From positions 1 through 38,276 of the IMG/VR virus record IMGVR_UViG_3300044714_000134: a DNA stretch of 38,276 nt. One strand, 5' to 3'. Each line of letters opens with the position of its first letter. Positions within the stretch are counted from its first letter, which is position 1. Positions 1,430-38,276 of the stretch are shown here, piece after piece. Position numbers and translations under genes: made by a program. The notes below the pieces were generated by a model that was given only the letters and a program-made list of their open reading frames with translations, was not told the DNA's origin and did not search any database. Origin of the DNA: a virus.

Positions 1430-3970
1430 CTATGAAGACGAGTTGTCGTCCAGGCTCGTGATCATGGAATTGTCCTGAGACGACGTGTCCACAGGCGCAG
1501 GAGGCGCGGTGGTCGCGGCGACCGCCTCCTGATTTGCGGCAAACGGATCCTGAGGAGTCGCGGTCGGCGCCGGCGCCGGCGTGGAAGCGGAAGATGGAGC
1601 GGGAGACCCAGCCGCAGCCTTGCCCGTTGCCGTAGCAGCGCCGCCAAAGATGCTGGTCAGGGCCGCCGTCCCGGCACCCGGAGCCCCAGTTGCGGTCGGC
1701 TTGAATAGGCTCATCGCGCTCGACATAAGTTTCTGGGCCAGAGTCTGAGGAGCTCCAGCGGCTGGAGTTGCCGGACCCTTGAAGATCATGTACGCCGCGA
1801 GCGCTCCGCCGCCGAGCAAAAGGTACGTCCCCGTGCTCGACTTTCCGCCCTTGCCGCCGCTGCGCCGACGAGATGGGTTCCTCTTATAGGAAAGCTTCTT
1901 CCGGCGGGTCATCCAGTACGCCAGGCCGCCGATGGCGGTCACCACGAGTAGAGGGACTCCCCACCCCGTCAAGTTGAAGGAGAACCCAGACGTCGGAGCC
2001 GCCGAACCGACGATCGCTGTGACTCCAGCCTGAACAGCTTGAGCGACAGCGGCCGAGTCTGCGGGGTCGACCACGCCAACGATGGCGTTCGTGATGTTTC
2101 CGGCGGCTGCGGAAGACGTGGCCGGGTCGACCGTCACGGACTGAGTCTGGCCGAGGCCAGATACACCGCGAGAAGGTCTTCCAAGAACGGCAGCAATTCG
2201 AGATGGATGGACTCCGGCTTTGCGGGCCGCTGCGGGAAGCATCCGCTTCACATGGGCATGGACGGTCTTATAAAGAGAGTTGCTGTTGCCGTTCCCGACC
2301 GGGATCGCCCTGACCCGGCCGCCGAGACCGCCGAGACCGGACAGGCCGTACAGTTGCGGATTCCACTCGAGGGATGGGTCGTCCAGCCAGTAATCGTTCT
2401 GGCCGGCGCGCATCGAACTGTCACGCCGAGTGCCGGCACTGACGGGGTGATGCGCCCTGGTGGCGGGCGTGCGGGCCTTCCCGCTGCCCTGCTTGATCTT
2501 CTTGACGACCGCAGCGGTGGCGGGAGTCGAAGTCGTGTTCACGATCGAAGCGTCTCCGGCCTGGACGGCATCGACCACTTTCGCAGCAGCGGTGGACGCA
2601 TCCGACGGAGCGATAGCCCCGGCGGCGACGGCGTTCGTGACATCCTTTTGGACGGCGTCCGCGACCGCAGCGACCGCGTCGTCTCCAAGACCTCCGAGAT
2701 TGACGCCTCTCGAGTAGTATTCCCCGAGGCCGGATTCCGATCCGTTCATCTTCGGAAGCCAGGAGAGAGACGGTTCGTTTTCCGATCCAGAACCGGTCGA
2801 CCCTGAGCGCGCGGACCTCTTAGTTGCGATGGCCGTGAGAGTCGCCGCAGTTGCGGGATTCTTCGAGACCGTCACGGCGTCACCTTTAGTGACAGCGTCG
2901 ACCACGGCAGCCGCATGGGCGGTGGCTTGGCTCGGGGCAATCGTACCAGCGGCAACCTTGGCTTGGGTGTCCTGGGCGACCGCAGAGACCACGGCGGCGG
3001 CCTCGTTGGGGTCCGCATCACCGAGACCTGCCATTCCGATCGCGTAACCACTCCATGCGTTTTTCATGAGATTTTTCTCCGATACATTCGGCTGAGGAAG
3101 AGCCTTCGACCAGTCGGTCTTCCAGGGTTCCATATACCCCCAAGCATTGAGGTGGATGGGGACATCCTTTCGAGCGATGAAAGACCAGGCATCCCGGTAG
3201 CTCTTCTGGCTGCGGATCGGGTAATGACCGTCGTAGGGGATCCCGCCGGCCCCTGGCTGCGTGGTCGTATCCGAGAACCGAGCGACCATGGCGCGCGGCG
3301 TGCCGGGCTGAGGCCTGGGCATGTCGATCTGCGACCCAGCGGCCGGATCCGCGTACGTGTGCGAGATGTCGTTCCGAACGTCCGGGGTCAGATTGATCGG
3401 GGACAGGCTGGATCTGAAAAATGGAGGCATTCCTAGTCCCTCGACGGTGGCGCTTTCGTACCCACTGACCCCGACGTCCTGCCGGGTCCAGATTCTCCGG
3501 TCGGTGATCCCGGCGGACGGGCGCCAGCCGACGGAACTTCCAGCGACGGTCACGTCAAGCGCGGTCCACTTCCCACGAGTGTTCAGTTCCGGATAGACGT
3601 GGCAGGGTTCCTTGTCGGGACGCGTCGAGACGGTGACGAAGCGGGAAGGGTTCCCCATCACCTCGCCCATTGCGGCGATCAGGATCGAGAAGTCGTCGCA
3701 ATCGGCGCGAGCGCGATTGATCGTGCTCCAGACGTCCTGGACCAGTTCGACGCCGTACGGGTCCCGTGTGTACTTGATGTTCGACTTCACCCAGTTGAAG
3801 ATCGACCGGACTTCGCCGGAGTAGTCTTTTCCGGGGACGGCTTGAGTGATCTGGTAGACGAGCTCCTGGAACTTTGGATCGGTGACGGCCTGGCCGACCA
3901 GCTGGTACATCCGCTGAATGGTGCTGGATGTCAGAACGTTTTCGGAAACGTCCTCGAGCATACTGGCCAC
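1430..3970 (-). CDS. Transglutaminase-like (papain-fold) protein with Ala-rich repeats and two membrane segments
   Basis: 846 aa from the GTG at 3970, which sits five bases after GGAG. An in-frame TTG at 4015 lies inside a terminator hairpin and lacks a ribosome-binding site. The N-terminal domain (about residues 50-150) carries the transglutaminase-like triad: Cys91 in RADCDDFS, His124 in CHVYPE and Asp139 in ALDVT. This fold includes proteases and peptide-crosslinking enzymes. Two Ala-rich tandem repeats (about 310-380 and 430-500) and a weaker third follow. Hydrophobic stretches occur at LLVVTAIGGLAYWM, followed by a very basic RRKK...KRNPSRRR patch, and at LLLGGGALAAYMIF. The C-terminus is Pro/Ala/Thr-rich. 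GLG tripeptides recur (VEGLGM, MAGLGDA, ESGLGE, LGGLGDD, VSGLGQ). A virion scaffold or maturation enzyme is inferred; the domain call is solid. Confidence 0.75.
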   Translation of the reverse strand: MASMLEDVSENVLTSSTIQRMYQLVGQAVTDPKFQELVYQITQAVPGKDYSGEVRSIFNWVKSNIKYTRDPYGVELVQDVWSTINRARADCDDFSILIAAMGEVMGNPSRFVTVSTRPDKEPCHVYPELNTRGKWTALDVTVAGSSVGWRPSAGITDRRIWTRQDVGVSGYESATVEGLGMPPFFRSSLSPINLTPDVRNDISHTYADPAAGSQIDMPRPQPGTPRAMVARFSDTTTQPGAGGIPYDGHYPIRSQKSYRDAWSFIARKDVPIHLNAWGYMEPWKTDWSKALPQPNVSEKNLMKNAWSGYAIGMAGLGDADPNEAAAVVSAVAQDTQAKVAAGTIAPSQATAHAAAVVDAVTKGDAVTVSKNPATAATLTAIATKRSARSGSTGSGSENEPSLSWLPKMNGSESGLGEYYSRGVNLGGLGDDAVAAVADAVQKDVTNAVAAGAIAPSDASTAAAKVVDAVQAGDASIVNTTSTPATAAVVKKIKQGSGKARTPATRAHHPVSAGTRRDSSMRAGQNDYWLDDPSLEWNPQLYGLSGLGGLGGRVRAIPVGNGNSNSLYKTVHAHVKRMLPAAARKAGVHPSRIAAVLGRPSRGVSGLGQTQSVTVDPATSSAAAGNITNAIVGVVDPADSAAVAQAVQAGVTAIVGSAAPTSGFSFNLTGWGVPLLVVTAIGGLAYWMTRRKKLSYKRNPSRRRSGGKGGKSSTGTYLLLGGGALAAYMIFKGPATPAAGAPQTLAQKLMSSAMSLFKPTATGAPGAGTAALTSIFGGAATATGKAAAGSPAPSSASTPAPAPTATPQDPFAANQEAVAATTAPPAPVDTSSQDNSMITSLDDNSSS

Positions 3971-3981
3971 AGGGTCTCCAG

Positions 3982-4032
3982 AAATAAAAAAGTCCCGGAG
4001 TACTGGATACTTCAACTCAGTACCGCGGGGCT
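3982..4032 (-). terminator. Rho-independent terminator, read on the minus strand
   Basis: Plus-strand arms at 3992-4005 (GTCCCGGAGTACTG) and 4018-4031 (CAGTACCGCGGGGC) pair over most of their length. On the minus strand the hairpin is followed at once by TTTTTTATTT. On the plus strand the other side has only CTTTT, so termination would be stronger leftwards. It separates 4099-6504 from the transglutaminase-like gene, whose GTG lies only 12 bases past the T-tract. Confidence 0.7.
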
Positions 4033-4098: not shown

Positions 4099-4419
4099 TC
4101 ACCTTCGAATGTCGACGAGCGGGTCCCCCGGGTCGTCCACGTCCTCTTCCTCTTCACCGAAGATCTCCTCGTTCGCCTCGATGTAGGCCCGCGCGAGATC
4201 CTTGAGATCCAGCTTCTGTTTGTCCTTCATCGCGGCCAGGATCTCCATCGTGAGGCCGACGACCTCGAAGTGACCGATCAGGTCGTCCATCTTCTCGCAG
4301 AATTCCGATGCAAGCTTCGCATTCGCCTGCATCTGCACCTGGAGGGCGATCAGCGTATCCAGCATCTGGACCGCAAGCGCGTCTCCGTTCGGTTTCGGTT
4401 TCGCTTCCTCTCCGCTCAT
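4099..4419 (-). CDS. Small acidic helical protein, unknown function
   Basis: 106 aa, predicted all-helical from its heptad-like spacing (ALAVQMLDTLIALQVQM, FCEKMDDLIGHFEVVGL). It ends in a strongly acidic tail (EEIFGEEEEDVDD). The ATG overlaps the stop of the 614-aa coiled-coil gene as ATGA, so the two are translationally coupled and probably act together. The acidic tail is shared in style with the neighbour's C-terminus. It is the last gene before the terminator at 3982-4032. I recognise no family. Confidence 0.65.
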   Translation of the reverse strand: MSGEEAKPKPNGDALAVQMLDTLIALQVQMQANAKLASEFCEKMDDLIGHFEVVGLTMEILAAMKDKQKLDLKDLARAYIEANEEIFGEEEEDVDDPGDPLVDIRR

Positions 4420-6260
4420 AGACCGCTTCCCTCCTCTTCGGCTTCTACTTCGGCTTCTTCCTCGTCGGCCGGATCAAATTTCGGATTCTTCTCCAGTTCG
4501 AGCCACCAGTGATTGAGCTCTTCGATGCCGAGCGACATCCACGCGGTTGCGCGCGGAGATGAGAGAACCTTGTCCCGCATCTTGTCCAGGTCGACGGCGT
4601 TGATGCCTTCGACCTTGAAAGCCTCGAAGACTTCCGCAGGCGTCTTTGCCAGGCAGACTTTCTCGAGAACCGTCTCGGGCAGGAGCTTCCAGGCGCCTTC
4701 GTAGTTCCAGTCGTACTGACGAGGACGTGTTTCGAGTTCTCGCTCCAGAACAATGATCGTACTGCAGACCCGATAGCAGGTTTCCTGGGCAACGGACATC
4801 TGAGGTTTCACCTGAGCCGTTGCGTCGGTGGCCGGCTCAGCTACAGGGGCGTCCGTGACCAAGTGAAGGTCTGGCTTCTTTTCGGCTTCCTCAGGTTTTG
4901 CTTCCGTCGCAGGTGTTGCCGGGGCTGCCGCGCCGACGACTTTTCGTTCCATGACGTTCACCTGAGGAACCGGCTCTTTTTTCGGCGGAGGATTCTCTTT
5001 TGGTTGCGGCAGGGCTGCGATGGCTCGCTCGGTGGCGACCCGGACGGCCTCGTCCTCGGCTTTCTTCATTTCGATCTCGAGGCTTTTTTTGAAGTCCTCC
5101 TTGTTGACTTCCTTGCCGCTCTTCTGGAGGCCGTCGAGGTTCTCGAAGATCCTGTCGATCACGCGCGGGGTCAGCTTGTCGCCTAGGCGGTCGAGGGCTT
5201 TTTCCCACCAAGGGCGGTCGTCGTTGGGGTCGTCTTCGTCGTCGTCATCGTCTCCGCTGTCGCCGCCCCACCCAAACAGCTTCTTCATCTTGATCGCGCT
5301 CTCCGCGAAATCAAGGAATCCACCGCTTTCCTTGTTGGGGCGCTTCTCGAGGTTGTCGATCTTCTGGACCAGCAGATTCATCCGGTCGTCCTGCATCTGC
5401 TTCATCATGTCCCCGAACCGCTTGTCGCTGGACTCCTGCATCTTCTGCATCTGCCCAAGCAGGAGAGCGGTTTCGGATTGGCCAGCGGGCTGGACGGGTT
5501 TTTGGCTCGCGGCGATCATCGCCTTCAGCTCTCGCATCTCGTCCGCATGCCGGCGGTCGCGCGCCTCGAGTTCGGCCTGGTGTTTCGCCTCGGTCAGACG
5601 GCGGTCGAGATCGAAGATTCTGGAGTCCGCTTCCTCGGAACCCTTTTTCCCCTTTCCGGTTCTCGCCATGCGCGCTTCCTCGAGCTGGTGCTCGAGATTC
5701 TCGACCTCGAGCAGCTTCGCGGTCACCGCAGCGCGACGATCGAGGCCGTCGATGCTGACTTGAGTGGCGTCTTTCTCCTGAGGGCCGAACATCGCCTTCT
5801 CCTCAGGGGTCATCTCGGCGCTCTGGATGAGCGGGTCCCCGTCGAGCTCGAAGTTTCGAGCGTCGATGATGCCGCCGGCCTCGGGATTCACGACCGAAAC
5901 CTTGTAGGTTCCGCCGCCCGCGTTCTCCTGGACCTCGCTTTTGATCTCTTCCCACTGCAATGGGAGCTCGCTGGTCCAGACTTCGACGGCGGTCTTGACG
6001 CCCTTCCACTGTTTCGGCCGAAGACGCTTCACCTTGACGATGAATTTCGGGTTCCGGAGCAGCTTGAAGAAATTTTCGAAGTCGTCGGCGGCGGGCTCCG
6101 GCTTCGCCTCGGTCTTTTCCGTCTGGATGCCGAGCTGCTTCTTCACTTCGTCGGCGCCGCCGCTCACCACAGCCCTGATTTGAACGTCTTCTGAAGTCAT
6201 CGGCCTCGATTCATCCGCCGGATCGCTTCCATTCCCACTCTCTGACCTACGACGCGGCAT
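4416..6260 (-). CDS. Large acidic coiled-coil protein, unknown function
   Basis: 614 aa. The start ATG lies behind AAGGAG. An N-terminal globular part (about 60-160) is basic and aromatic (FKLLRNPKFIVKVKRLRPKQW, KTAVEVWTSELPLQW). A long coiled coil spans about 180-310 (LEVENLEHQLEEARMAR, ELKAMIAAS, MMKQMQDDRMNLL). An Asp run with WW follows (DDDDDEDDPNDDRPWWEKAL). A low-complexity Pro/Lys/Ala linker then leads to a compact C-terminal domain (about 490-600) ending in acidic Glu repeats. The layout suggests a scaffolding, internal virion or DNA-organising protein. No catalytic motif is seen. It overlaps the upstream gene slightly and the downstream gene by ATGA. Confidence 0.65.
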   Translation of the reverse strand: MPRRRSESGNGSDPADESRPMTSEDVQIRAVVSGGADEVKKQLGIQTEKTEAKPEPAADDFENFFKLLRNPKFIVKVKRLRPKQWKGVKTAVEVWTSELPLQWEEIKSEVQENAGGGTYKVSVVNPEAGGIIDARNFELDGDPLIQSAEMTPEEKAMFGPQEKDATQVSIDGLDRRAAVTAKLLEVENLEHQLEEARMARTGKGKKGSEEADSRIFDLDRRLTEAKHQAELEARDRRHADEMRELKAMIAASQKPVQPAGQSETALLLGQMQKMQESSDKRFGDMMKQMQDDRMNLLVQKIDNLEKRPNKESGGFLDFAESAIKMKKLFGWGGDSGDDDDDEDDPNDDRPWWEKALDRLGDKLTPRVIDRIFENLDGLQKSGKEVNKEDFKKSLEIEMKKAEDEAVRVATERAIAALPQPKENPPPKKEPVPQVNVMERKVVGAAAPATPATEAKPEEAEKKPDLHLVTDAPVAEPATDATAQVKPQMSVAQETCYRVCSTIIVLERELETRPRQYDWNYEGAWKLLPETVLEKVCLAKTPAEVFEAFKVEGINAVDLDKMRDKVLSSPRATAWMSLGIEELNHWWLELEKNPKFDPADEEEAEVEAEEEGSGL

Positions 6261-14175: not shown

Positions 14176-14480
14176 TCCCTCACATCATCCAGATCACTTT
14201 GCCTCCCTGGGTTCAGGCTCTGGTCGCGATCACGGCGATCCTGGCGAACGTCGGGACCTTCGCGTTCGTCATCTTCGTCCTCTGGCCATCGATCCGGAAC
14301 CAGGAGCGGCGATCCGGCAAGCTCGAGGCTTGGGTGGACGGTCCGGAAGGACAGCGAATCAAAGCTGCGGTCATTTCCAAGATCGACAAAGCCGATGGCC
14401 TCGGATCCGCCAGCAAGCCGGCCGATAAAGCAAGCTGGTGGACCGACAGGACTGAAGACGGTGAACGCAGTGAGCTTTGA
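14172..14480 (+). CDS. Small membrane protein with one N-terminal membrane segment
   Basis: 102 aa, ATGA overlap with the zinc-finger-like gene. Residues about 12-40 form a membrane segment (VQALVAITAILANVGTFAFVI) followed by RNQERRSG, placing the soluble helical C-terminus in the cytoplasm by the positive-inside rule. Its last codons overlap the GTG start of the large glycosyltransferase gene. A spanin- or holin-like role, or an anchor for the glycosyltransferase complex, are possible; nothing decides. Confidence 0.55.
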   Translation: MIPHIIQITLPPWVQALVAITAILANVGTFAFVIFVLWPSIRNQERRSGKLEAWVDGPEGQRIKAAVISKIDKADGLGSASKPADKASWWTDRTEDGERSEL

Positions 14481-16314
14481 ACGGATCAACCTTGTCACTG
14501 CGGTCTCCAGGCCGGAGAATCTCGTCCGGATCCACAAGTCGATCGCCTCGTCGCTCTCGAAGTCTTCACTTCGAGCCCGCTGGATCCTAGTCGTAGACCA
14601 CCCCGAAGCGATCTGGCCGGGGATCGAAATGTCGCTCCGGTCCGAGAAGATCGACGTCGACAAAGTGGTCTACTCCGGACCGAAGTGCCAGTACGGTATT
14701 CTGCAGAAAAATCTCGGCATGGACACGATCACCGACGGTTACTACCACCTGCTCGACGACGATAACTTGGTCCATCCAGAGTTCTTCACCGGTATCGAGC
14801 GGGCCATGGCCGGGAACCCATCAGCTCGCGCGTTCGTGGTCAGCCAGTGTCGGTGGGACAACGCCGGCAGCCTGCTCGCGTCTCCGGACCGGATGGAGTA
14901 CGGACAGATCGACAATACGATGTTCGTCGTCCATCGGGACCTGATCGGCCAAAAACGGTACAACATCGAAAAGTCGGGTCACGAAGACTTCTATTTTTTC
15001 AGAGAGCTCTGGGAGTCTCATCCCGGAAAGTTCGTTTTTATCCCTCAGATCCTGGCCTACTACAACTACATCCGGTGCTGGCCGGTGGAGACGTCCCACG
15101 AACCGATCGTAATCGGGGGCATATCAGACGTTTTGAGGCCGACTCTTCTGATCGCTCGGCCAGCGATGCCGCCTCAACTTCAGCAGCCCTCCTCGCATCC
15201 TTCGCTTCCTTCGGCGCCAATTCTGTCGCCTCACCCGATCGTCACCACCCCGTCCATCTGGCCAACGAATCCTATCGTTGAACCTCCGAGGAAACCGAAA
15301 ATGAAAATCGCGATGTACAGCTCGAAGCGTGAACGGTGCGGAATCTCGACCTACACGTCGCACCTGGCCGATGCACTCACCGGACTCGGATGCGAGGTCC
15401 AGTACTTCAGCAGCCAGCCTCCCTACGAGCAGAGGTTCCAGGAGATCCTGGCGTGGAAGCCCGACGTCTTCCATTTTCAGCACGAGACTTCGATCATGCC
15501 GGGAGGTGGGGACGTCGCCAGGTTCTCAGCCATGCTCCGGCAGAATGGAGCGAAAGTCTTCATCACTCTTCACACGGAAAGTCACGAGAATGTCCAGATC
15601 GGACGGTCTGCCGGACCGATCATCATTCACCGTCCGTCGCAGCACGCGCCGGACGCTAACATCCTGCCGATGCCCTGCACGAACGCGCCAAACCTTCCAG
15701 AACGGTCGGCCGCGCGCCGGCACTTCGGGATCCCGGACTCCGCGCTCCTGATCTCGACCGTCGGATTCATGATCCCATGGAAAGACCATCCGAAGGTGCT
15801 CGAGATGCTGGCTCCCTGGATGCGTAGTCGTCCGGACGTCCATATCCAGTTGATCGCGAGCGCGCATTTCAATGAGAGTCTGCAGGGGTACGCCCACCTC
15901 TGCCGCCAGCAGATTGCTCATGTCGCGGCCGGCGCCGCGATCTCCGATCGCGTCCACCACATTGACAGCTACCCTAGTGACCTGGAGCTGGTTAACCGGC
16001 TTTCCATGTCCGACCTCGGGTACGTCTGGTGTCCGTTCGACACGGGTTCGGCCTCCGCAGCCGGATCTCAGTTCATCTCTGCCAAGTGCCCGCTGGTTGC
16101 GACCGACTCCAGTCACTACATGACTTTGGGGGAGGGCACCGTCCGTGCCTCGAAAGGGAGCATGGCGGAATTCGTCGCGCTGATCCAGAGGACGGCCGAA
16201 GATCGTGGCCTGCTGGATCGGCTCCGGTCGAATCAGGACGCCGTCTACGCAGCCAGAAATTACACCGAGACCGCTCGGAAGCATCTTGTGATTTACAACG
16301 GAGGGAGAGTCTGA
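14461..16314 (+). CDS. Bifunctional glycosyltransferase: GT-A domain fused to GT-B domain
   Basis: 617 aa from the GTG at 14461. The N-terminal GT-A-like domain (about 1-225) has INLVTAVSRPENL, a DxD-type motif in YYHLLDDDNLVHPEFF and a second acidic motif at GHEDFYFFREL. A proline-rich linker (about 226-280) follows. The GT-B domain begins at MKIAMYSSKRERCGIST, has the interdomain signature VGFMIPWKDHPKVLEML and a late-domain stretch FDTGSASAAGSQFISAKCP. GT4-like enzymes use nucleotide sugars. The two modules probably add successive sugars of one glycan. An internal ATG at 15301 behind GAGGAAA could also make the GT-B part alone. It opens the glycan operon and overlaps the next gene by one base. 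Confidence 0.75.
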   Translation: MNAVSFERINLVTAVSRPENLVRIHKSIASSLSKSSLRARWILVVDHPEAIWPGIEMSLRSEKIDVDKVVYSGPKCQYGILQKNLGMDTITDGYYHLLDDDNLVHPEFFTGIERAMAGNPSARAFVVSQCRWDNAGSLLASPDRMEYGQIDNTMFVVHRDLIGQKRYNIEKSGHEDFYFFRELWESHPGKFVFIPQILAYYNYIRCWPVETSHEPIVIGGISDVLRPTLLIARPAMPPQLQQPSSHPSLPSAPILSPHPIVTTPSIWPTNPIVEPPRKPKMKIAMYSSKRERCGISTYTSHLADALTGLGCEVQYFSSQPPYEQRFQEILAWKPDVFHFQHETSIMPGGGDVARFSAMLRQNGAKVFITLHTESHENVQIGRSAGPIIIHRPSQHAPDANILPMPCTNAPNLPERSAARRHFGIPDSALLISTVGFMIPWKDHPKVLEMLAPWMRSRPDVHIQLIASAHFNESLQGYAHLCRQQIAHVAAGAAISDRVHHIDSYPSDLELVNRLSMSDLGYVWCPFDTGSASAAGSQFISAKCPLVATDSSHYMTLGEGTVRASKGSMAEFVALIQRTAEDRGLLDRLRSNQDAVYAARNYTETARKHLVIYNGGRV

Positions 16315-20342: not shown

Positions 20343-21104
20343 ATGAACTTTGAAGAACTCTCCGAGTTGGCCAGGTCCTTCGTCAAGGTGACCAAGGAAG
20401 AATGGAACGTCCTTTTCGAGACGCTCAAGGACGACGCGGCGATGAACCTCATCATGAAGAATGAGTGGTTCAGCAAACCCAGGGACAGCGATCAGGCGGT
20501 GATCGAGTATTACCGAGAGAGCAAGATCTGGTTTGTTAATACGTTCAATCACGCCTACCGGGCGCTGCTGTCCCTGGCCAACAAGGACTCCGGCGGCCTG
20601 TCCAGGGAGGCGTGGCATCAGTTTTTCGAGGCCGAGCTCAACACGGGGGACCGTATCTTGGATTACGGAGGAGGATTCTGGAACGACACCGCGATCCTGG
20701 CGCTCGACGGATGGAACGTGACGCAGGCCGAAGTTCTCGGACCGACGACCGATTTTCTGACGGCATTCGTGAACTTGACCGGGACACAAAAGAACCTTCA
20801 GGTGCTTCCGGTCGACAGCGGCTCTCCGATCCGTGAGACCTACGAAGCTGTCACCTGCTTCGAGCTCCTGGAGCATCTTCTACATCCGAAGGAGTTCACG
20901 GTCCATCTGAGAGATCATCTGGCTCAAGGGAAGCCGTTCGCCTCGTCCGTCTCTTTTAGCGCACCCGAGCACGCCCCCTACCACGTCGCCTCAAACGAGC
21001 CGCTCGGACGCGGGTACATTTGGCTGGATACGATGCAGGAGATGGGGTTCGAGCAGATCTGGGCTCCTAGGGGATCGCATCGTAGGATCTGGAGGAAACG
21101 ATGA
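20343..21104 (+). CDS. SAM-dependent methyltransferase (class I), glycan operon
   Basis: 253 aa, ATG behind GGAGG. The N-terminal 100 residues are helical. The Rossmann core carries the SAM-binding motif RILDYGGGFWNDTAIL (about 103-118), the acidic strand WNVTQAEVLG, and post-motif stretches EAVTCFELLEHL and FASSVSFSAPEH. The ELLEHL variant is common in sugar and small-molecule methyltransferases of glycan loci. It may methylate a sugar of the glycan made by the surrounding enzymes. Overlaps the next gene by ATGA. Substrate not determinable. Confidence 0.75.
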   Translation: MNFEELSELARSFVKVTKEEWNVLFETLKDDAAMNLIMKNEWFSKPRDSDQAVIEYYRESKIWFVNTFNHAYRALLSLANKDSGGLSREAWHQFFEAELNTGDRILDYGGGFWNDTAILALDGWNVTQAEVLGPTTDFLTAFVNLTGTQKNLQVLPVDSGSPIRETYEAVTCFELLEHLLHPKEFTVHLRDHLAQGKPFASSVSFSAPEHAPYHVASNEPLGRGYIWLDTMQEMGFEQIWAPRGSHRRIWRKR

Positions 21105-22363
21105 AGAGGATCCTACTTCTAGACCATCCTCAGTTCACCTCCTGCACGTTCTATCTCTGGCACGGACTTCGGGAGATCGAGGAGGCCTATCCCGGGTCGT
21201 TCGAAGTGTCGGTCTACCCGTACATTCCGACGCACTACGACAAGCAAACTTTCCGGCTCTCGGACCTCCCCTGGTTCCGGTGGCTGAACGCTCAAGTGGA
21301 GGCGTGGAAGAGCACCGGCAAGTATCCGGACGGGATCCCGCCATTCCAAGCCACCGAAACGCTCACGTCGCTCGACACGAACGAGATCATTCGAAGCCAG
21401 ACCACTCCAAGGCTGTTCCACGAACGGAACCTACTTCCGGACGAGGATTCGGTCGTTCGAAAGTTGGAGGCTGGAGAGTTCGACTTGATCGTTCTTGGGA
21501 ACAGCCATCGAGTTCCGACGATCCTGCTCGCGCTGCTCAAGGCTCGGGTCAGGAATCTTCCTCCGATCGTCTACCTGGACGCCGGCGAGCGCGACGAACT
21601 GAACGAGCACTGGATCCACGTCTTCCGTCCGAATTTAATCTTCAAGCAGATTCTGACGCCGGCAGTGAAGGTAAAAGGCCTGACCACTCCGATCCCTGGG
21701 TACCCGTTCAAGATCTACCCCCTTCCTCTCTCGTCACCCCTGGTCGACCAGAGCATCGAGTTCTTCGGGGTCTCTGTCCAGTGGCTCCGTTCGTTCTCGA
21801 ACTGCAAGAAGAATCCGAAGGTCTTCCCGGTCTTCTACCCTTTCGGGATGACTTGGCCGGAGCGGGCGAACGTCGTCGCGGCGCTCGATCAGTGGGTCCT
21901 GGAGGGAAAGTACTCTGTCGCGCGCGGAGCTCCGACGGGCCCGTACCACATCCTGATCGCGATGTCCAAGATGGCCGTCTCGATGCGCGGATCCGGACGG
22001 GACACCGATCGCTACTGGAGCATTCCGCTCTACCAGACCGCCATGATTTGTGACGGAACGATGGGCTGCATCCACCCATACCCGTTCGAGGATCGGAAAA
22101 CGGCCTACTTCTACAGGTCGATTCCGGAACTGATCGACATCGTTAATCGGATCCAGAAGGACGATCGGGAGATGCTGGATGTCGCCGTCGCCGGCCAAGC
22201 ACACCTACAGAAGTACCACTCGACGGCGGCCCGGGCGGTGTTCTTCCTGGACATCCTGGACAAAGAGCTCGGCTTCCAGGACCAAACGCTCCGAGAGTCG
22301 CTCGCACACTTTAAGTCGAGTAGAGGGTGGGACGGAAGGGCCTGGGAGGGCCCGGTCGTATGA
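21101..22363 (+). CDS. Glycosyltransferase-like protein (GT-B, exostosin/CgeB-like pattern), copy 1
   Basis: 420 aa, ATGA overlap. It starts KRILLLDHPQFTSCTFYLWHG. Other signature stretches are DLIVLGNSHRVPTILLALL, YLDAGERDELNEHWIHVF and FKQILTPAV. A late motif SMRGSGRDTDRYWSIPLYQTA then precedes a G-CIHPYPFEDRKT segment. The GSGRDTxRYW...G stretch resembles the nucleotide-sugar site of exostosin- or CgeB-like GT-B enzymes. A close tandem paralogue follows at 22360. Both end in WEGPVV. This copy is GC-richer. Sugar specificity unknown; the family call is by motif pattern. Confidence 0.6.
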   Translation: MKRILLLDHPQFTSCTFYLWHGLREIEEAYPGSFEVSVYPYIPTHYDKQTFRLSDLPWFRWLNAQVEAWKSTGKYPDGIPPFQATETLTSLDTNEIIRSQTTPRLFHERNLLPDEDSVVRKLEAGEFDLIVLGNSHRVPTILLALLKARVRNLPPIVYLDAGERDELNEHWIHVFRPNLIFKQILTPAVKVKGLTTPIPGYPFKIYPLPLSSPLVDQSIEFFGVSVQWLRSFSNCKKNPKVFPVFYPFGMTWPERANVVAALDQWVLEGKYSVARGAPTGPYHILIAMSKMAVSMRGSGRDTDRYWSIPLYQTAMICDGTMGCIHPYPFEDRKTAYFYRSIPELIDIVNRIQKDDREMLDVAVAGQAHLQKYHSTAARAVFFLDILDKELGFQDQTLRESLAHFKSSRGWDGRAWEGPVV

Positions 22364-23616
22364 AGAGGATCCTGTTCCTGGATCACCCTCAGTTCACCTC
22401 GGCCACCTACTTTCTTTGGCAGGGCCTGAAGGAGTTGGAAGCGGCCTTTCCGAAGGATCTGATGATCTCGAGCTATCCGTATATTCCAATCAACTACGAC
22501 GAGGACTCCTGCGATCTCCGATCGCTCACTTGGTTCAACCAGCTTCGAGATCTAGTTGAGTGGTCGAAAAGCGGTAGGACGCACCTTCCTGACGGGGTTC
22601 CTTCATTTCACGATACAGAATATCTGACCGCTGAGAACGCATCTGGAATCACCCGAGGACATCCATGGTTCCGCCCAAAGAAGGAGAACATCGTCGAGAG
22701 CGAGGATCAAGCGATCCGGATGCTCCGTGACCATAAGTTTGACGTAATTGTTCTCGGAAACAGCCACCGGGTGCCTACGTTGCTGCTGGCGCGGCTCCGG
22801 GACTGGGTAAAAGAACTTCCTCCGATCATCTACTACGATGCTGGCGAGCGCGACGAATTGAACGAGCACTGGATTCATGTATTCAAACCTGCGGTAGTGT
22901 TCAAGCAAATCCTGACGCCGGCAGTCAGAAATCTTGGGATGACCCAGAAGATCGAAGGATACGAATTAAAGCTTTATCCACTCCCGTTGTCCTCACCGAT
23001 CGTCGATCATGACATCAGTCTCGAAGGGGTTTCGATTCAATGGCTCAGAAACCGGTCAAGGACAACGAAAAAGCTTCTTCAGATTTTTTACCAGATGGGG
23101 GAGACCTGGATTGAGCGTGCTTCCGTAATGGAAGCTCTCGATGATCTTCTTTACGAGAAGAGGATTTCATCGATAGGGAAGTGCTCGTACATCGACTACC
23201 ACTACGTCATTGCAAACTCGAGAATGGCCGTCACGATGAGAGGGTCCGGACGAGATACCAGCAGATACTGGGAGATCCCACTGTACTCCACTGCGATGAT
23301 CTCTGACGGGACGATGGGGTGCATTCATCCGTATCCGTTCGAGGACAAGAAAACCGCGCTCTTCTACAGATCAATCGAAGAGCTCGTAAGCGTTGTTAGC
23401 GAAGGAATATCCGACGATTCTCAGATCTATAGGGTTTCTGTCAACGGTCAGGAGCATCTCCAGAAGTACCATTCCGTCTCGGCAAGGGCCGCATTCTTTC
23501 TGGACATCCTCGACAAGGAGATCAACCTTTTCGACAAAAACCTCAGAGATTGCCTTAACGGATGGAAGATCAACAGGAAGTGGGACAGTCGCCCTTGGGA
23601 AGGTCCGGTCGTATGA
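22360..23616 (+). CDS. Glycosyltransferase-like protein, tandem paralogue copy 2
   Basis: 418 aa, ATGA overlap with copy 1. Nearly every block of copy 1 is kept (KRILFLDHPQFTSATYFLW, VIVLGNSHRVPTLLLARL, YDAGERDELNEHWIHVF, TMRGSGRDTSRYWEIPLY, CIHPYPFEDKKTA, final WEGPVV). The middle regions have diverged and the codons are AT-richer. This looks like an older duplication or the import of a homologue from another phage rather than a recent copy. The pair probably adds related sugars to different acceptors. Joined by ATGA to the next gene. Confidence 0.6.
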   Translation: MKRILFLDHPQFTSATYFLWQGLKELEAAFPKDLMISSYPYIPINYDEDSCDLRSLTWFNQLRDLVEWSKSGRTHLPDGVPSFHDTEYLTAENASGITRGHPWFRPKKENIVESEDQAIRMLRDHKFDVIVLGNSHRVPTLLLARLRDWVKELPPIIYYDAGERDELNEHWIHVFKPAVVFKQILTPAVRNLGMTQKIEGYELKLYPLPLSSPIVDHDISLEGVSIQWLRNRSRTTKKLLQIFYQMGETWIERASVMEALDDLLYEKRISSIGKCSYIDYHYVIANSRMAVTMRGSGRDTSRYWEIPLYSTAMISDGTMGCIHPYPFEDKKTALFYRSIEELVSVVSEGISDDSQIYRVSVNGQEHLQKYHSVSARAAFFLDILDKEINLFDKNLRDCLNGWKINRKWDSRPWEGPVV

Positions 23617-29345: not shown

Positions 29346-29350
29346 ATAGG

Positions 29351-30592
29351 ATGGTAGAGGGTGTGGATTTTCATTCCTCCAGGATCCTGTCCGTCTGCTC
29401 CGGAGTCGGGCAGCTCGATACCGGCATCCGTGTGGCGCTCCCAAGGTCTCGCGTCGTCTGCTGCGTTGAGCACGAAGCATACGCCGCCCACGTCCTGGCT
29501 TCGCGCATGGAAGATGAAGCCCTGGATGCGGCGCCTATTTGGACGAATCTACGAACCTTCGATGGCCGTCCGTGGCGTGGCCTTGTGGATGGAATCGTTG
29601 GCGGCTATCCCTGTCAGCCCTTCTCTCAGGCCGGAAAGCGGCTTGGGGCAGAAGACCCACGCCACCTCTGGCCGGAAATCCTCCGACTCATCGGAGAGGT
29701 TGAGCCTGGGTGGTGTTGGTTTGAGAACGTCCGCGGACACCTTACAAAAGGATTCGACGTCGTCTACCGAGACCTTCGCGCAGCTGGTTACCGAGTTAAA
29801 GCGGGACTTTTCAGCGCGGAGGAAGTCGGCGCGAGCCACCAGAGAGAGAGACTCTTCATCCTCGCAATGGCAGACACCGGCGACGGACGCCTTCCGGTGC
29901 CGTGGCGGGGATCGGAAGGACGAGATGGGTCTGGATCAGAAAGCGCGAAACTGGTCGACCCCGACAGCTTCCGGCGAGGAGAGGGGCCCTGCCACGTACA
30001 AGCAGGGCGGGACGCCGCTGAAGCAGCAGGCTATGAAATGGCCGACGGCCACGGCACAGGACGCCGGTGGATCCGGACGGCACACGACGAAGTCAGGATC
30101 GATGCACCCAGGAACGACGCTGATGGATGCGATCCAGCTCTGGCCAACACCAAGGACGATCACGGGCGGTGCGGAGAGCGCGGAGCGGAAGCAGGAGCTC
30201 GGCCGGGAGAACTCGGGCGGCGGGGATCTTCAGGCAGCGGTGGAGAAGTGGCCAACGCCGAACCAGAGGGACTACAAGGGCCCGGACCTGAAGAGCCGGC
30301 ACGGCGGAGCGTCCCTCCCTCACTTCGTGGAGACTGGGGAGCGAGTTCACTCCCAATCTTTGCCCCAGGTCCCGGTGACGTCCGTATCTGGGGGCGAGTT
30401 GTCGAAGACGGGTCTACAAACGGCCTTGCGCCGTCGACTCAACCCGGCGTTCGTATGCTGGCTGATGGGGTGGCCTTGGTGGTGGACGAATCCCGGAGAG
30501 ATCAGCTCCGCGCGATCGGCAACGGGGTGGTACCTCTTCAGGCTTCGTTCGCATTTAGCGTCCTTACTCGCAAGATGGGAGTCGTTATCTAG
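29351..30592 (+). CDS. C5-cytosine DNA methyltransferase (Dcm-type)
   Basis: 413 aa. Motif I SVCSGVGQLDTG (14-25), motif IV with catalytic Cys88 in GGYPCQPFSQAG, motif VI ENVRGH (125-130), motif VIII QRERLFI (164-170) and motif X RAIGNGVVPLQASFAF near the end are all present, so the enzyme should be active. It transfers methyl from SAM to C5 of cytosine, probably to protect phage DNA from host restriction. The region between VIII and X is long, Gly/Arg-rich and includes repeated ADT/ANT/ANA triplets. The same DNA is also open and motif-rich in the +1 frame (see next entry). No restriction endonuclease is adjacent, so it is an orphan enzyme. Confidence 0.9.
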   Translation: MVEGVDFHSSRILSVCSGVGQLDTGIRVALPRSRVVCCVEHEAYAAHVLASRMEDEALDAAPIWTNLRTFDGRPWRGLVDGIVGGYPCQPFSQAGKRLGAEDPRHLWPEILRLIGEVEPGWCWFENVRGHLTKGFDVVYRDLRAAGYRVKAGLFSAEEVGASHQRERLFILAMADTGDGRLPVPWRGSEGRDGSGSESAKLVDPDSFRRGEGPCHVQAGRDAAEAAGYEMADGHGTGRRWIRTAHDEVRIDAPRNDADGCDPALANTKDDHGRCGERGAEAGARPGELGRRGSSGSGGEVANAEPEGLQGPGPEEPARRSVPPSLRGDWGASSLPIFAPGPGDVRIWGRVVEDGSTNGLAPSTQPGVRMLADGVALVVDESRRDQLRAIGNGVVPLQASFAFSVLTRKMGVVI

Positions 30593-30596
30593 ATGA
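29868..30596 (+). CDS. Possible overprinted +1-frame protein with WPTP repeats inside the methyltransferase gene
   Basis: This frame is open from 29361 to the TGA at 30596. From 29868 it carries five W-x-T-x repeats: WQTPATDAF, WSTPTASGE, WPTATAQDA, WPTPRTITG and WPTPNQRDY, at TGG positions 29868, 29952, 30039, 30141 and 30249. A C-terminal block RRRLNPAFVCWLMGWPWWWTNP follows near 30430-30490. I recall these motifs from phage proteins found at methyltransferase loci. The same bases read in the methyltransferase frame give MADT, LVDP, MADG, LANT and VANA. No clear ribosome-binding site or shift site is identified, so expression is unproven. Confidence 0.4.
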   Translation, partial: WQTPATDAFRCRGGDRKDEMGLDQKARNWSTPTASGEERGPATYKQGGTPLKQQAMKWPTATAQDAGGSGRHTTKSGSMHPGTTLMDAIQLWPTPRTITGGAESAERKQELGRENSGGGDLQAAVEKWPTPNQRDYKGPDLKSRHGGASLPHFVETGERVHSQSLPQVPVTSVSGGELSKTGLQTALRRRLNPAFVCWLMGWPWWWTNPGEISSARSATGWYLFRLRSHLASLLARWESLSR

Positions 30597-36722: not shown

Positions 36723-37549
36723 CTGCTCCCTCCTCTAAGTTTTTCGGCTTCAGCGAGAACGTCCTTCGCGCCGAGCTTTGAATATCCACGAGTGGTATTG
36801 AGATTGGAATGACCGAGGATCTCGGCCGCGATCATGAGGCCATTGTCGCCCTTCCCGTGGACGAGCTCCGTACCCAGGCTGTGACGAAGATCGTGCCAGC
36901 GGAACTCCTCGCCGGTCTCCGAGTTCTTGATCCCCAGGCCTTCCTGGAGCTTGATGAACCAGGTGTAGATCTCCGACTCCCAGAACGGGAACACACGCTC
37001 TTCGGGGGCGCCCTTCTTCATCTTGGACAGGACCGGGATCGCCTTCGCCATGAAGTAGCCCAGCTTCCCGGTACCGACCTTCATGACCTTGAAGCCGCCG
37101 ATGTCGTCCCACTGGCCCTGGATCTCGAACGAGCTCTTGATCTTCCCATCGTCGTCCACGATGTCCCGCCAGGTCAACCCGAGGAGCTCTCCCTTCCGGA
37201 GGCCGCTCTCGCGCGCGGCGATCATGCAGGCGTGTTCGAGGTGGTAGGCCAGGGCCGCCTTCTCGATCTTCTTGAAGATCTCTGGCGGGATCCCCCGAGG
37301 AGGCTTCCGGATCTTCGCCCAATAGCCGCGGTACCATTCCGTACAGCTCTGGCGGACCTTCCCGGTCTTGCCGCACTTCCAGCAGGGCTGCCCCTGTTTC
37401 TTTCCAGATCCCTTGCAGGACCGGCACTGGACGATGTAACTGTGTTCCTTTCCGCTGCCGACCTTCTGCCGCTTTCCGTAGTGACCGGGTTGGTAGCTCT
37501 TTTTGCAGTTCGGATTCAAACAGATCTTCGGCTCGTGCTTGACCTTCAC
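36719..37549 (-). CDS. Tyrosine recombinase/integrase with N-terminal zinc finger
   Basis: 276 aa from GTG 37549 (GTGA overlap with the upstream gene). The catalytic set is R118 in SGLRKGELL, H219 and R222 in WHDLRHSLG, H247 in LGHSNL and nucleophile Y256 in TTRGYSKLG. The N-terminus (10-70) has CLNPNC and a DnaJ-type CRSCKGSG...CWKCGKTGK cysteine pattern, with only about 30 residues before the catalytic domain. The usual helical core-binding domain is therefore absent or very short. The zinc module may bind the arm or core DNA instead. Predicted to integrate or resolve the element. No attachment site is recognisable in the window. Confidence 0.88.
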   Translation of the reverse strand: MKVKHEPKICLNPNCKKSYQPGHYGKRQKVGSGKEHSYIVQCRSCKGSGKKQGQPCWKCGKTGKVRQSCTEWYRGYWAKIRKPPRGIPPEIFKKIEKAALAYHLEHACMIAARESGLRKGELLGLTWRDIVDDDGKIKSSFEIQGQWDDIGGFKVMKVGTGKLGYFMAKAIPVLSKMKKGAPEERVFPFWESEIYTWFIKLQEGLGIKNSETGEEFRWHDLRHSLGTELVHGKGDNGLMIAAEILGHSNLNTTRGYSKLGAKDVLAEAEKLRGGSR

Positions 37550-37788
37550 TTCTTTTTCTCGACCTTTCTGAGTTTCTCGAGCGCCCAGCCGATTGTCTCC
37601 TGGATCCGGATGCAGTCCTTGCAGCTCTCGCTCATGGGAGACTTGCAATTGGCGCAGTCCATGAGCATGTCCTTGAGCTGGTTGATGTACTTCAGGAGCT
37701 TTTCTTTGACGAGGGTGAAGGTCTCGGCGGTGGCTGCGTCGGAAAACAGGGAGATCCGGTCCCTGATCGACTGCAGGCTATACTTCAA
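37546..37788 (-). CDS. Small cysteine-containing helical protein
   Basis: 80 aa, TTG start four bases after AGAGGG. Helical N-terminus (LQSIRDRISLF, TFTLVKEKLLKYINQLKDM), then CANCKSPMSESCKDC as a four-cysteine zinc motif, and a basic helical end. Overlaps the integrase start by GTGA; may be an accessory factor for it. Function unknown. Confidence 0.55.
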   Translation of the reverse strand: MKYSLQSIRDRISLFSDAATAETFTLVKEKLLKYINQLKDMLMDCANCKSPMSESCKDCIRIQETIGWALEKLRKVEKKK

Positions 37789-37806
37789 CTTTCCCTCTTT
37801 CCCCTT

Positions 37807-37828
37807 TGATCTTCGAGATGGAAGATTA
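37807..37828 (-). repeat. Intergenic hairpin of the family, minus orientation
   Basis: On the minus strand TAATCTTC, loop CATCTC, GAAGATCA. The 5' arm carries the TAA stop of the gene at 37826. GGGGAAAGAGGG and the TTG start follow. Confidence 0.7.
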
Positions 37829-38182
37829 TACCGTGCGGATGACGCCAGGTCTAGCTTCGTACACTGTGGAAGTCCCGGGAGGGGCCTCGATCGTGTCCAG
37901 GGGTGGGGTCAGGAGGGCTTTTTTCAGGATGGCGCCCCCTGCAGAGATGAAGAAGATCTCGAACGGCTCAGGGACATTACGGGAATGGAATACGGTGCCG
38001 GCGGGGATCCTCGGAAACTTGAAGATCGTGTCGGCCGGGATTGTCGAGAAATGCTGCAGACCGAGCGACTGCTGCTCGCGCGTCTCGAAAACGACCGTCT
38101 TCACACGCTTCCTCGGGTAGCTGACCTGATCCGTATTCCGGTACATCCTGATCAGAGTCCGGACCAGGCTTTCGTCCTTCAC
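37826..38182 (-). CDS. Beta-rich hypothetical protein
   Basis: 118 aa from GTG 38182, overlapping the preceding stop (GTGTGA). Alternatives are GTG 38227 and ATG 38146; none has a good Shine-Dalgarno. The sequence alternates beta-like segments: KRVKTVVFETREQQSLG, FSTIPADTIFKFPRIPAGTVF, FEIFFISAGGAILKKALL. Possibly a jelly-roll or beta-sandwich domain. Function unknown. The stop lies in a family hairpin. Confidence 0.5.
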   Translation of the reverse strand: MKDESLVRTLIRMYRNTDQVSYPRKRVKTVVFETREQQSLGLQHFSTIPADTIFKFPRIPAGTVFHSRNVPEPFEIFFISAGGAILKKALLTPPLDTIEAPPGTSTVYEARPGVIRTV

Positions 38183-38276
38183 ACCCCGGCAACACCGTGG
38201 AGGGCTACCAGGTCCTGACCGTTGCACGAAGGGTCGATCGCGGCGGCGGCCAGGATAGCAGTTGCTGCGGCAGCAT
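38179..38276 (-). CDS. C-terminal fragment of a gene entering from the right edge
   Basis: Only the last 31 residues are visible: an alanine-rich stretch (AAAATAILAAAAIDPS), then CNGQDLVALHGVAGV and TGA. It overlaps the next gene. The frame choice rests on this overlap, so confidence is limited. Confidence 0.4.
   Translation of the reverse strand, partial: AAAATAILAAAAIDPSCNGQDLVALHGVAGV

Follow-up and report, generated by a model that had tools for sequence, protein, structure and literature searches.

The viral DNA analysed here (an IMG/VR virus record of 38,276 bp, termed the window) contains a cytosine-5 (m5C) DNA methyltransferase gene that is doubly open, both in frame one and in the +1 frame, and that, judging from patterns of sequence conservation, almost certainly codes in both. 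The two products, termed here alpha and beta, are very likely the subunits of a single, split m5C methyltransferase. Beyond this locus, they probably typify a large and apparently undescribed phage family in which both subunits of such an enzyme occupy two full-length frames with paired starts and exchangeable cassettes--a family within which, it likewise seems probable, each frame supplies what the other frame lacks and is kept open as a linker elsewhere. The analysis shows that both frames are open, that they are conserved together, that the selection acting on them is complementary, that their starts are paired, and that the structural model of alpha has no recognition domain.

Frame one is open from 29351 to 30592 (413 aa), with an in-frame ATG at 29351 upstream of GTG 29363, the start that agrees with the relatives. 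Alpha residues 11-173 match PF00145 (E=2.7e-28), and alpha carries motifs I, IV (PCQ), VI (ENV), VIII and X, as an m5C DNA methyltransferase does. The +1 frame, described in a first-pass annotation as open over the whole gene, is indeed uninterrupted from 29361 to 30596, so that the start codons of alpha and beta lie 2 nt apart and their stops (TAG 30590 and TGA 30594) 4 nt apart. That annotation had pointed to two meaningful frames, which is borne out by PF00145 and motifs through X in frame one and by PHROG matches in the +1 frame; the dual coding that it proposed for the C-terminal half is supported, but the overlap spans the whole gene and not only the part from 29868. The features of the locus are as follows:

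29348..29366, + strand: shared initiation region (AGGA 29348-29351, beta GTG 29361, alpha GTG 29363)
29361..30596, + strand: beta ORF, +1 frame, 411 aa (MWIFIP... start, W-x-T-P cassettes, motif IX, C-terminal helix)
29363..30592, + strand: alpha ORF, m5C DNA methyltransferase frame (motifs I-VIII and X; PF00145, start context)
29390..29863, + strand: alpha catalytic region (motif I 29390-29410, IV 29600-29626, VI 29720-29731, VIII 29837-29863)
29868..30335, + strand: putative target-recognition cassettes of beta (W-x-T-x repeats at 29868, 29952, 30039, 30141 and 30249)
29927..30343, + strand: alpha linker (ADT/ANT/ANA readings of the beta repeats; predicted disordered, unselected, kept open)
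30341..30475, + strand: doubly constrained block (alpha FAPGPxDxxxW...QPGVRMLADG, beta ...LNPAFVCWLMGW)
30438..30488, + strand: beta motif IX region LNPAFVCWLMGWPWWWT, near-invariant in 67 relatives
30509..30544, + strand: alpha motif X (RAIGNGVVPLQA), under alpha-frame selection in relatives

Read in the +1 frame, motif IX is LNPAFVCWLMGWP; the chain that holds the catalytic motifs, alpha, includes neither a recognition domain nor motif IX. The whole enzyme would be a member of the m5C DNA methyltransferase family (PF00145) only as alpha plus beta. Rather than representing two unrelated families, alpha and beta appear to complement each other within a single enzyme.

In the proposed mechanism, one cytosine-5 DNA methyltransferase would be encoded as two polypeptides by the same DNA read in two frames. 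Alpha would provide the SAM-binding and catalytic core (motifs I-VIII) together with motif X, the two being bridged by a long disordered linker; beta, starting about 2 nt from alpha and downstream of the same ribosome-binding region, would provide modular target recognition and motif IX. On the simplest reading, alpha and beta would be initiated side by side from one message and would form a heterodimer: that is, both frames would be translated, alpha would bind beta, and the cassettes would set specificity. The probable target of the assembled enzyme is the phage genome, whose methylation could, for instance, protect it from host restriction.

The beta product matches phrog_1008 (E=7e-23) and phrog_27243 (8.6e-8), as do all 67 of the 67 aligned beta relatives (both families in each case). 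PHROG 1008 is labelled 'DNA methyltransferase' and PHROG 27243 is listed as of unknown function; the window's beta and its 67 relatives fit both, and neither entry mentions a second, overlapping methyltransferase frame over its members. A single tblastn search with beta yielded relatives in 35 IMG/VR contigs, several of them matched along the entire protein (residues 1-403). Among sequenced isolates, relatives occur in the Acidovorax phages Alfacinha1 and 3 and in a pair of Synechococcus phages. No Pfam or NCBIfam family was matched by beta, and its weak PDB profile matches to the coat protein of MS2 (27 residues, E 0.0016) were taken as chance. Nor did a single-sequence query with the window's methyltransferase find a relative among viral contigs, because several of the patterns used fell in the unconserved linker. 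A search of the open-access literature found no paper describing this family.

Altogether, both frames co-occur at the same +1 offset in more than 100 distinct phage loci, where they are open for hundreds of codons; among the loci examined the offset is the same throughout, except where one frame breaks mid-gene. Loci L011-L129 were found mostly through the +1 frame and are thus biased towards it. A further 80 loci were fetched by methyltransferase-frame alignment, with patterns placed on motif IV and motif X only; in 76 of these 80 the N-half has no +1 stop whatsoever, and in 69 the +1 frame spans more than 85% of the methyltransferase frame. Of the 117 alignment-fetched loci where motif IX was recognised by pattern, 114 have it in the +1 frame. 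Moreover, the lengths of alpha and beta co-vary, from ~300 to 508 aa, over the 69 loci with both ORFs delimited.

Stop codon avoidance was assessed by synonymous permutation. When the codons of the window's own methyltransferase gene were permuted, the +1 frame was equally open in only 2 of 500 trials. For the relatives, the test is quoted on the methyltransferase-fetched set because of the bias noted above for L011-L129: with the methyltransferase protein kept, the N-halves of the 80 loci contain 12 stops in the +1 frame versus 167.8 ± 8.6 expected. The +2 frame of the same N-halves contains 534 versus 502 expected, so that the depletion in the +1 frame does not reflect a general avoidance of stops. 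Conversely, with the beta protein kept, the methyltransferase frame of the recognition region contains 41 stops versus 481 ± 17 expected (128 loci). This depletion in both directions implies that each frame is kept open even where it is the other frame that is functional.

Which frame is selected where was explored using disjoint pairs of relatives, with changes sorted into four classes (nonsynonymous or synonymous in each frame); rates were taken from the relatives because the window itself has no close relative. Within the recognition region, beta yields a dNN/dSN of 0.11 [0.09-0.14] and alpha a dNN/dNS of 0.91 [0.69-1.22], which corresponds to no selection (1.42 in more distant pairs). Within the motif IX block both frames are selected (beta 0.21 [0.16-0.27], alpha 0.54 [0.41-0.71]), and permutation of the block at 30341-30475 gives z=27 in one direction and z=15 in the other. 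Over the motif X region selection acts on alpha (0.29 [0.20-0.38]), with only a weak effect on beta (0.61 [0.41-0.90]). An independent permutation test reproduces this regional map. Overall, motifs I-VIII and X are under selection in the alpha frame, the recognition region and motif IX in the beta frame.

Over the N-half, alpha is the main selected frame. Beta's dSN/dSS there is 0.24 [0.14-0.39], whereas flanking genes give 1.12 [0.78-1.71] and the third frame gives 0.89 (the N-half dSS being based on few sites, about 97), and its dNN/dNS differs little from that of the controls (0.59 vs 0.70). At matched DNA identity, four-fold divergence of the N-half is similar overall to that of the controls; within genome pairs it is 0.256 vs 0.362 (p=0.0015), a reduction that is not in itself decisive because alpha is also more conserved at the protein level. 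Hence the argument for the N-half rests on stop depletion and on dSN/dSS. Selection on this part of beta at the protein level appears to be modest, and it may be little more than an open leader.

A homologue search with the +1 product alone and an analysis of synonymous-site evolution across homologues, the two sequence-based checks that had been suggested at the outset, both speak for the second frame: homologues were found among PHROGs, IMG/VR contigs and phage isolates, and synonymous-site evolution reveals selection on the +1 frame, so that the +1 product is neither an orphan nor free of constraint.

The five W-x-T-x repeats reported from 29868 onward, along with LNPAFVCWLMGWPWWWT, are present where they had been placed, and their reported base-for-base coincidence with alpha triplets is exact at all five: the alpha-frame readings are MADTG, LVDPD, MADGH, LANTK and VANAE. 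This coincidence is automatic, inasmuch as TGG-CCN-ACN-CCN, when read one base earlier, becomes xTG-GCC-NAC-NCC, that is, [LMV]-A-[DNHY]-[TASP]; the ADT/ANT triplets are a by-product because it is the +1 frame, not the methyltransferase frame, that is under protein-level selection over the recognition region.

Cutting the recognition region of beta at W-x-[TS]-[PAVS] defines 458 cassette segments from 133 loci, with a median length of 33 residues. Members of the same cassette cluster occur at differing positions and next to differing neighbours among the loci, and copy number varies (the largest cluster is held together by single links in a chain, and different cassettes may be mixed within it). 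This pattern looks like, and is suggestive of, recognition modules being swapped, as is seen in multispecific phage methyltransferases. Across 22 distinct copies of the cassette WQTPATDSFRSRGGDRKDEMGLDQ, variation falls on +1-frame third positions, with entropies by beta codon position of 0.39/0.20/0.96. Within one group of related loci (L028, L029, L037, L039, L040, L043 and L047) cassettes differ between close relatives. One or both frames of these loci are also interrupted mid-gene, which may reflect phase variation, insertions or decay.

Initiation in the window involves a GTG/GTG pair behind a modest AGGA. Among relatives, 87 loci show the W[LI]Y[VI]P opening, and in every one of them the Trp codon is preceded, at 3 or 6 nt, by a start codon for beta (62 ATG, 23 GTG and 2 TTG), where the chance of a start codon at that spacing is about 0.125 per locus. 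This codon lies a few bases from the alpha start, and a Shine-Dalgarno-like 4-mer lies upstream in 69 of the 87. A common form is RTGAATGTGG, in which the alpha RTG is followed four bases on by the beta ATG. The placement of an alpha start beside a beta start is partly automatic, since NTG followed by TGG always yields a GTG two bases on.

AlphaFold, given the 67 aligned relatives, predicts the core of alpha (residues 1-175) with confidence, pLDDT being mostly above 90, and likewise the motif X segment at about 390-409; residues 189-327 fall below 50. The alpha model matches the M.HhaI fold at a Z of about 20, the alignment taking in about 200-215 of 327 residues; the part missing from this predicted structure is what beta carries. 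Beta alone is predicted weakly (mean pLDDT 56), better at the helices around 22-81 and 139-152 and in the motif IX/C-terminal part, and such a poor prediction would not be surprising if beta is a subunit that acquires its fold on alpha. A Foldseek search with the beta model matched no fold in the PDB and yielded only one significant match in BFVD, to a phage protein (394 aa, uncharacterised) that could itself be a beta.

A different arrangement occurs in mycobacteriophages Medusa and BabyBack (L004 2008-3103 and L010 1987-3220), where the enzyme is split into two consecutive genes: motifs I-VIII come first, and the recognition repeats, IX and X then follow in the +1 frame. Another locus (L024/L108, from IMGVR_UViG_3300040801_001081) has its motif IX and X frames displaced relative to the N-half, such that the alpha N-half and beta motif IX fall within one ORF; this could be a natural frame switch, a pseudogene or an assembly error. 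An evolutionary history of frame switching, which had been offered as an alternative to dual coding, is glimpsed only in this locus and in the split mycobacteriophage versions.

These data bear on how else the two frames might be understood. That beta is a separate protein--a regulator or an anti-restriction factor, for example--overlapping a self-sufficient methyltransferase would accord with its full length, its own start and its predicted N-half helices (pLDDT about 70-85), yet we regard this as unlikely: alpha is without a selected or structured recognition domain and without motif IX, both of which an m5C methyltransferase needs and which are exactly what beta has, and in the mycobacteriophage relatives the portion corresponding to beta is just the enzyme's second half. 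Programmed frameshifting, whereby a single chain would pass from the alpha frame into the +1 frame after motif VIII and back again for motif X, fits the fact that the selected regions follow the normal m5C methyltransferase order along the gene, and in Medusa and BabyBack the two consecutive genes make just such a frame change after motif VIII, with motif X in the second. It would, however, require two shifts per protein, and it leaves unexplained the openness of the +1 frame in the N-half (12 vs 168 stops), the openness of alpha in the recognition region (41 vs 481 stops) and the conserved, separate beta start; we consider it very unlikely. Finally, that alpha alone is made and that the +1 frame is an accident of codon usage is extremely improbable and is already contradicted at the sequence level: alpha alone does contain a recognisable Pfam domain and long chance open frames are frequent in GC-rich genes, but a chance open frame is ruled out by the synonymous permutations and by the third-frame and flanking-gene controls, the bases that vary within cassettes are beta's third positions, and the recognition region of alpha is unselected.

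Deposited annotation of the family is inconsistent, listing beta in Alfacinha1 and 3 and in a Sphingomonas plasmid and alpha in Synechococcus phage Yong-M2-251. A locus in E. coli 914033 (L213 1221-2390) is 95% identical to the two-frame locus of Klebsiella phage RCIP0114, in which both frames are open over the C-terminal part; for the E. coli version PGAP records two pseudogene fragments, both incomplete and named 'DNA cytosine methyltransferase', and relatives of the RCIP0114 locus also occur in other E. coli genomes. Within the window itself, helicase, Sak4-like and primase genes match PHROGs well, and several long ORFs have no PHROG match at E 0.001: on the + strand, 14395-16314, 21101-22363, 22327-23616 and 36809-38218 and, on the - strand, 1430-4015 and 4416-6260.

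Same-strand overlaps of more than 1.2 kb with complementary selection are rare, and recurrence in more than 100 distinct loci makes this one a strong natural test case for the origin and maintenance of overlapping genes. Methyltransferase annotation is likewise affected, as pipelines list alpha in some genomes, beta in others and pseudogenes in E. coli 914033. And naturally exchanged recognition cassettes on a separate subunit would bear on how methyltransferase sequence specificity evolves.

In the phage m5C methyltransferases SPR, phi3T and H2, the stretch from motif VIII to motif IX holds several recognition modules in tandem. The window enzyme likewise has several putative tandem modules there, each W-x-T-P cassette possibly with a target of its own; those enzymes, however, are single chains encoded in one frame.

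M.AquI is a naturally split m5C methyltransferase: the break falls after motif VIII and before motif IX, in its variable (recognition) region, and its second subunit holds motifs IX and X (PMC3404938). M.AquI thereby offers a precedent for a split at this place. The window enzyme would also be split in the variable region, but motif X stays on alpha, in whose frame it is conserved, apart from motif IX. Motif order as in M.AquI is found instead in the Medusa and BabyBack versions.

The second polypeptide of M.EcoHK31I is reportedly short and read from another frame inside the first gene; the window, in contrast, does not have a short beta nested within alpha, as beta is 411 aa long and the two starts are 2 nt apart. 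As summarised in PMC3404938, the larger subunit of M.EcoHK31I (Lee, Kam and Shaw 1995) carries motifs I-VIII and X and has the predicted TRD, with motif IX on the second polypeptide; for this placement of motif IX the enzyme is a biochemical precedent. The window locus resembles this in having motifs I-VIII and X on alpha and motif IX in the alternative frame, where beta would be translated; it differs in that beta is as long as alpha, has an adjoining start and overlaps it end to end, and in that selection on the recognition region acts on beta rather than on the larger subunit. Closer to M.EcoHK31I are loci L206 and L207, with a methyltransferase frame of 310-320 codons and a beta of about 215 that opens inside alpha. 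The window locus would thus appear to belong with M.EcoHK31I among split m5C methyltransferases, but with the overlap running from end to end and recognition, in modules, carried by the second frame; this layout is common in phages.
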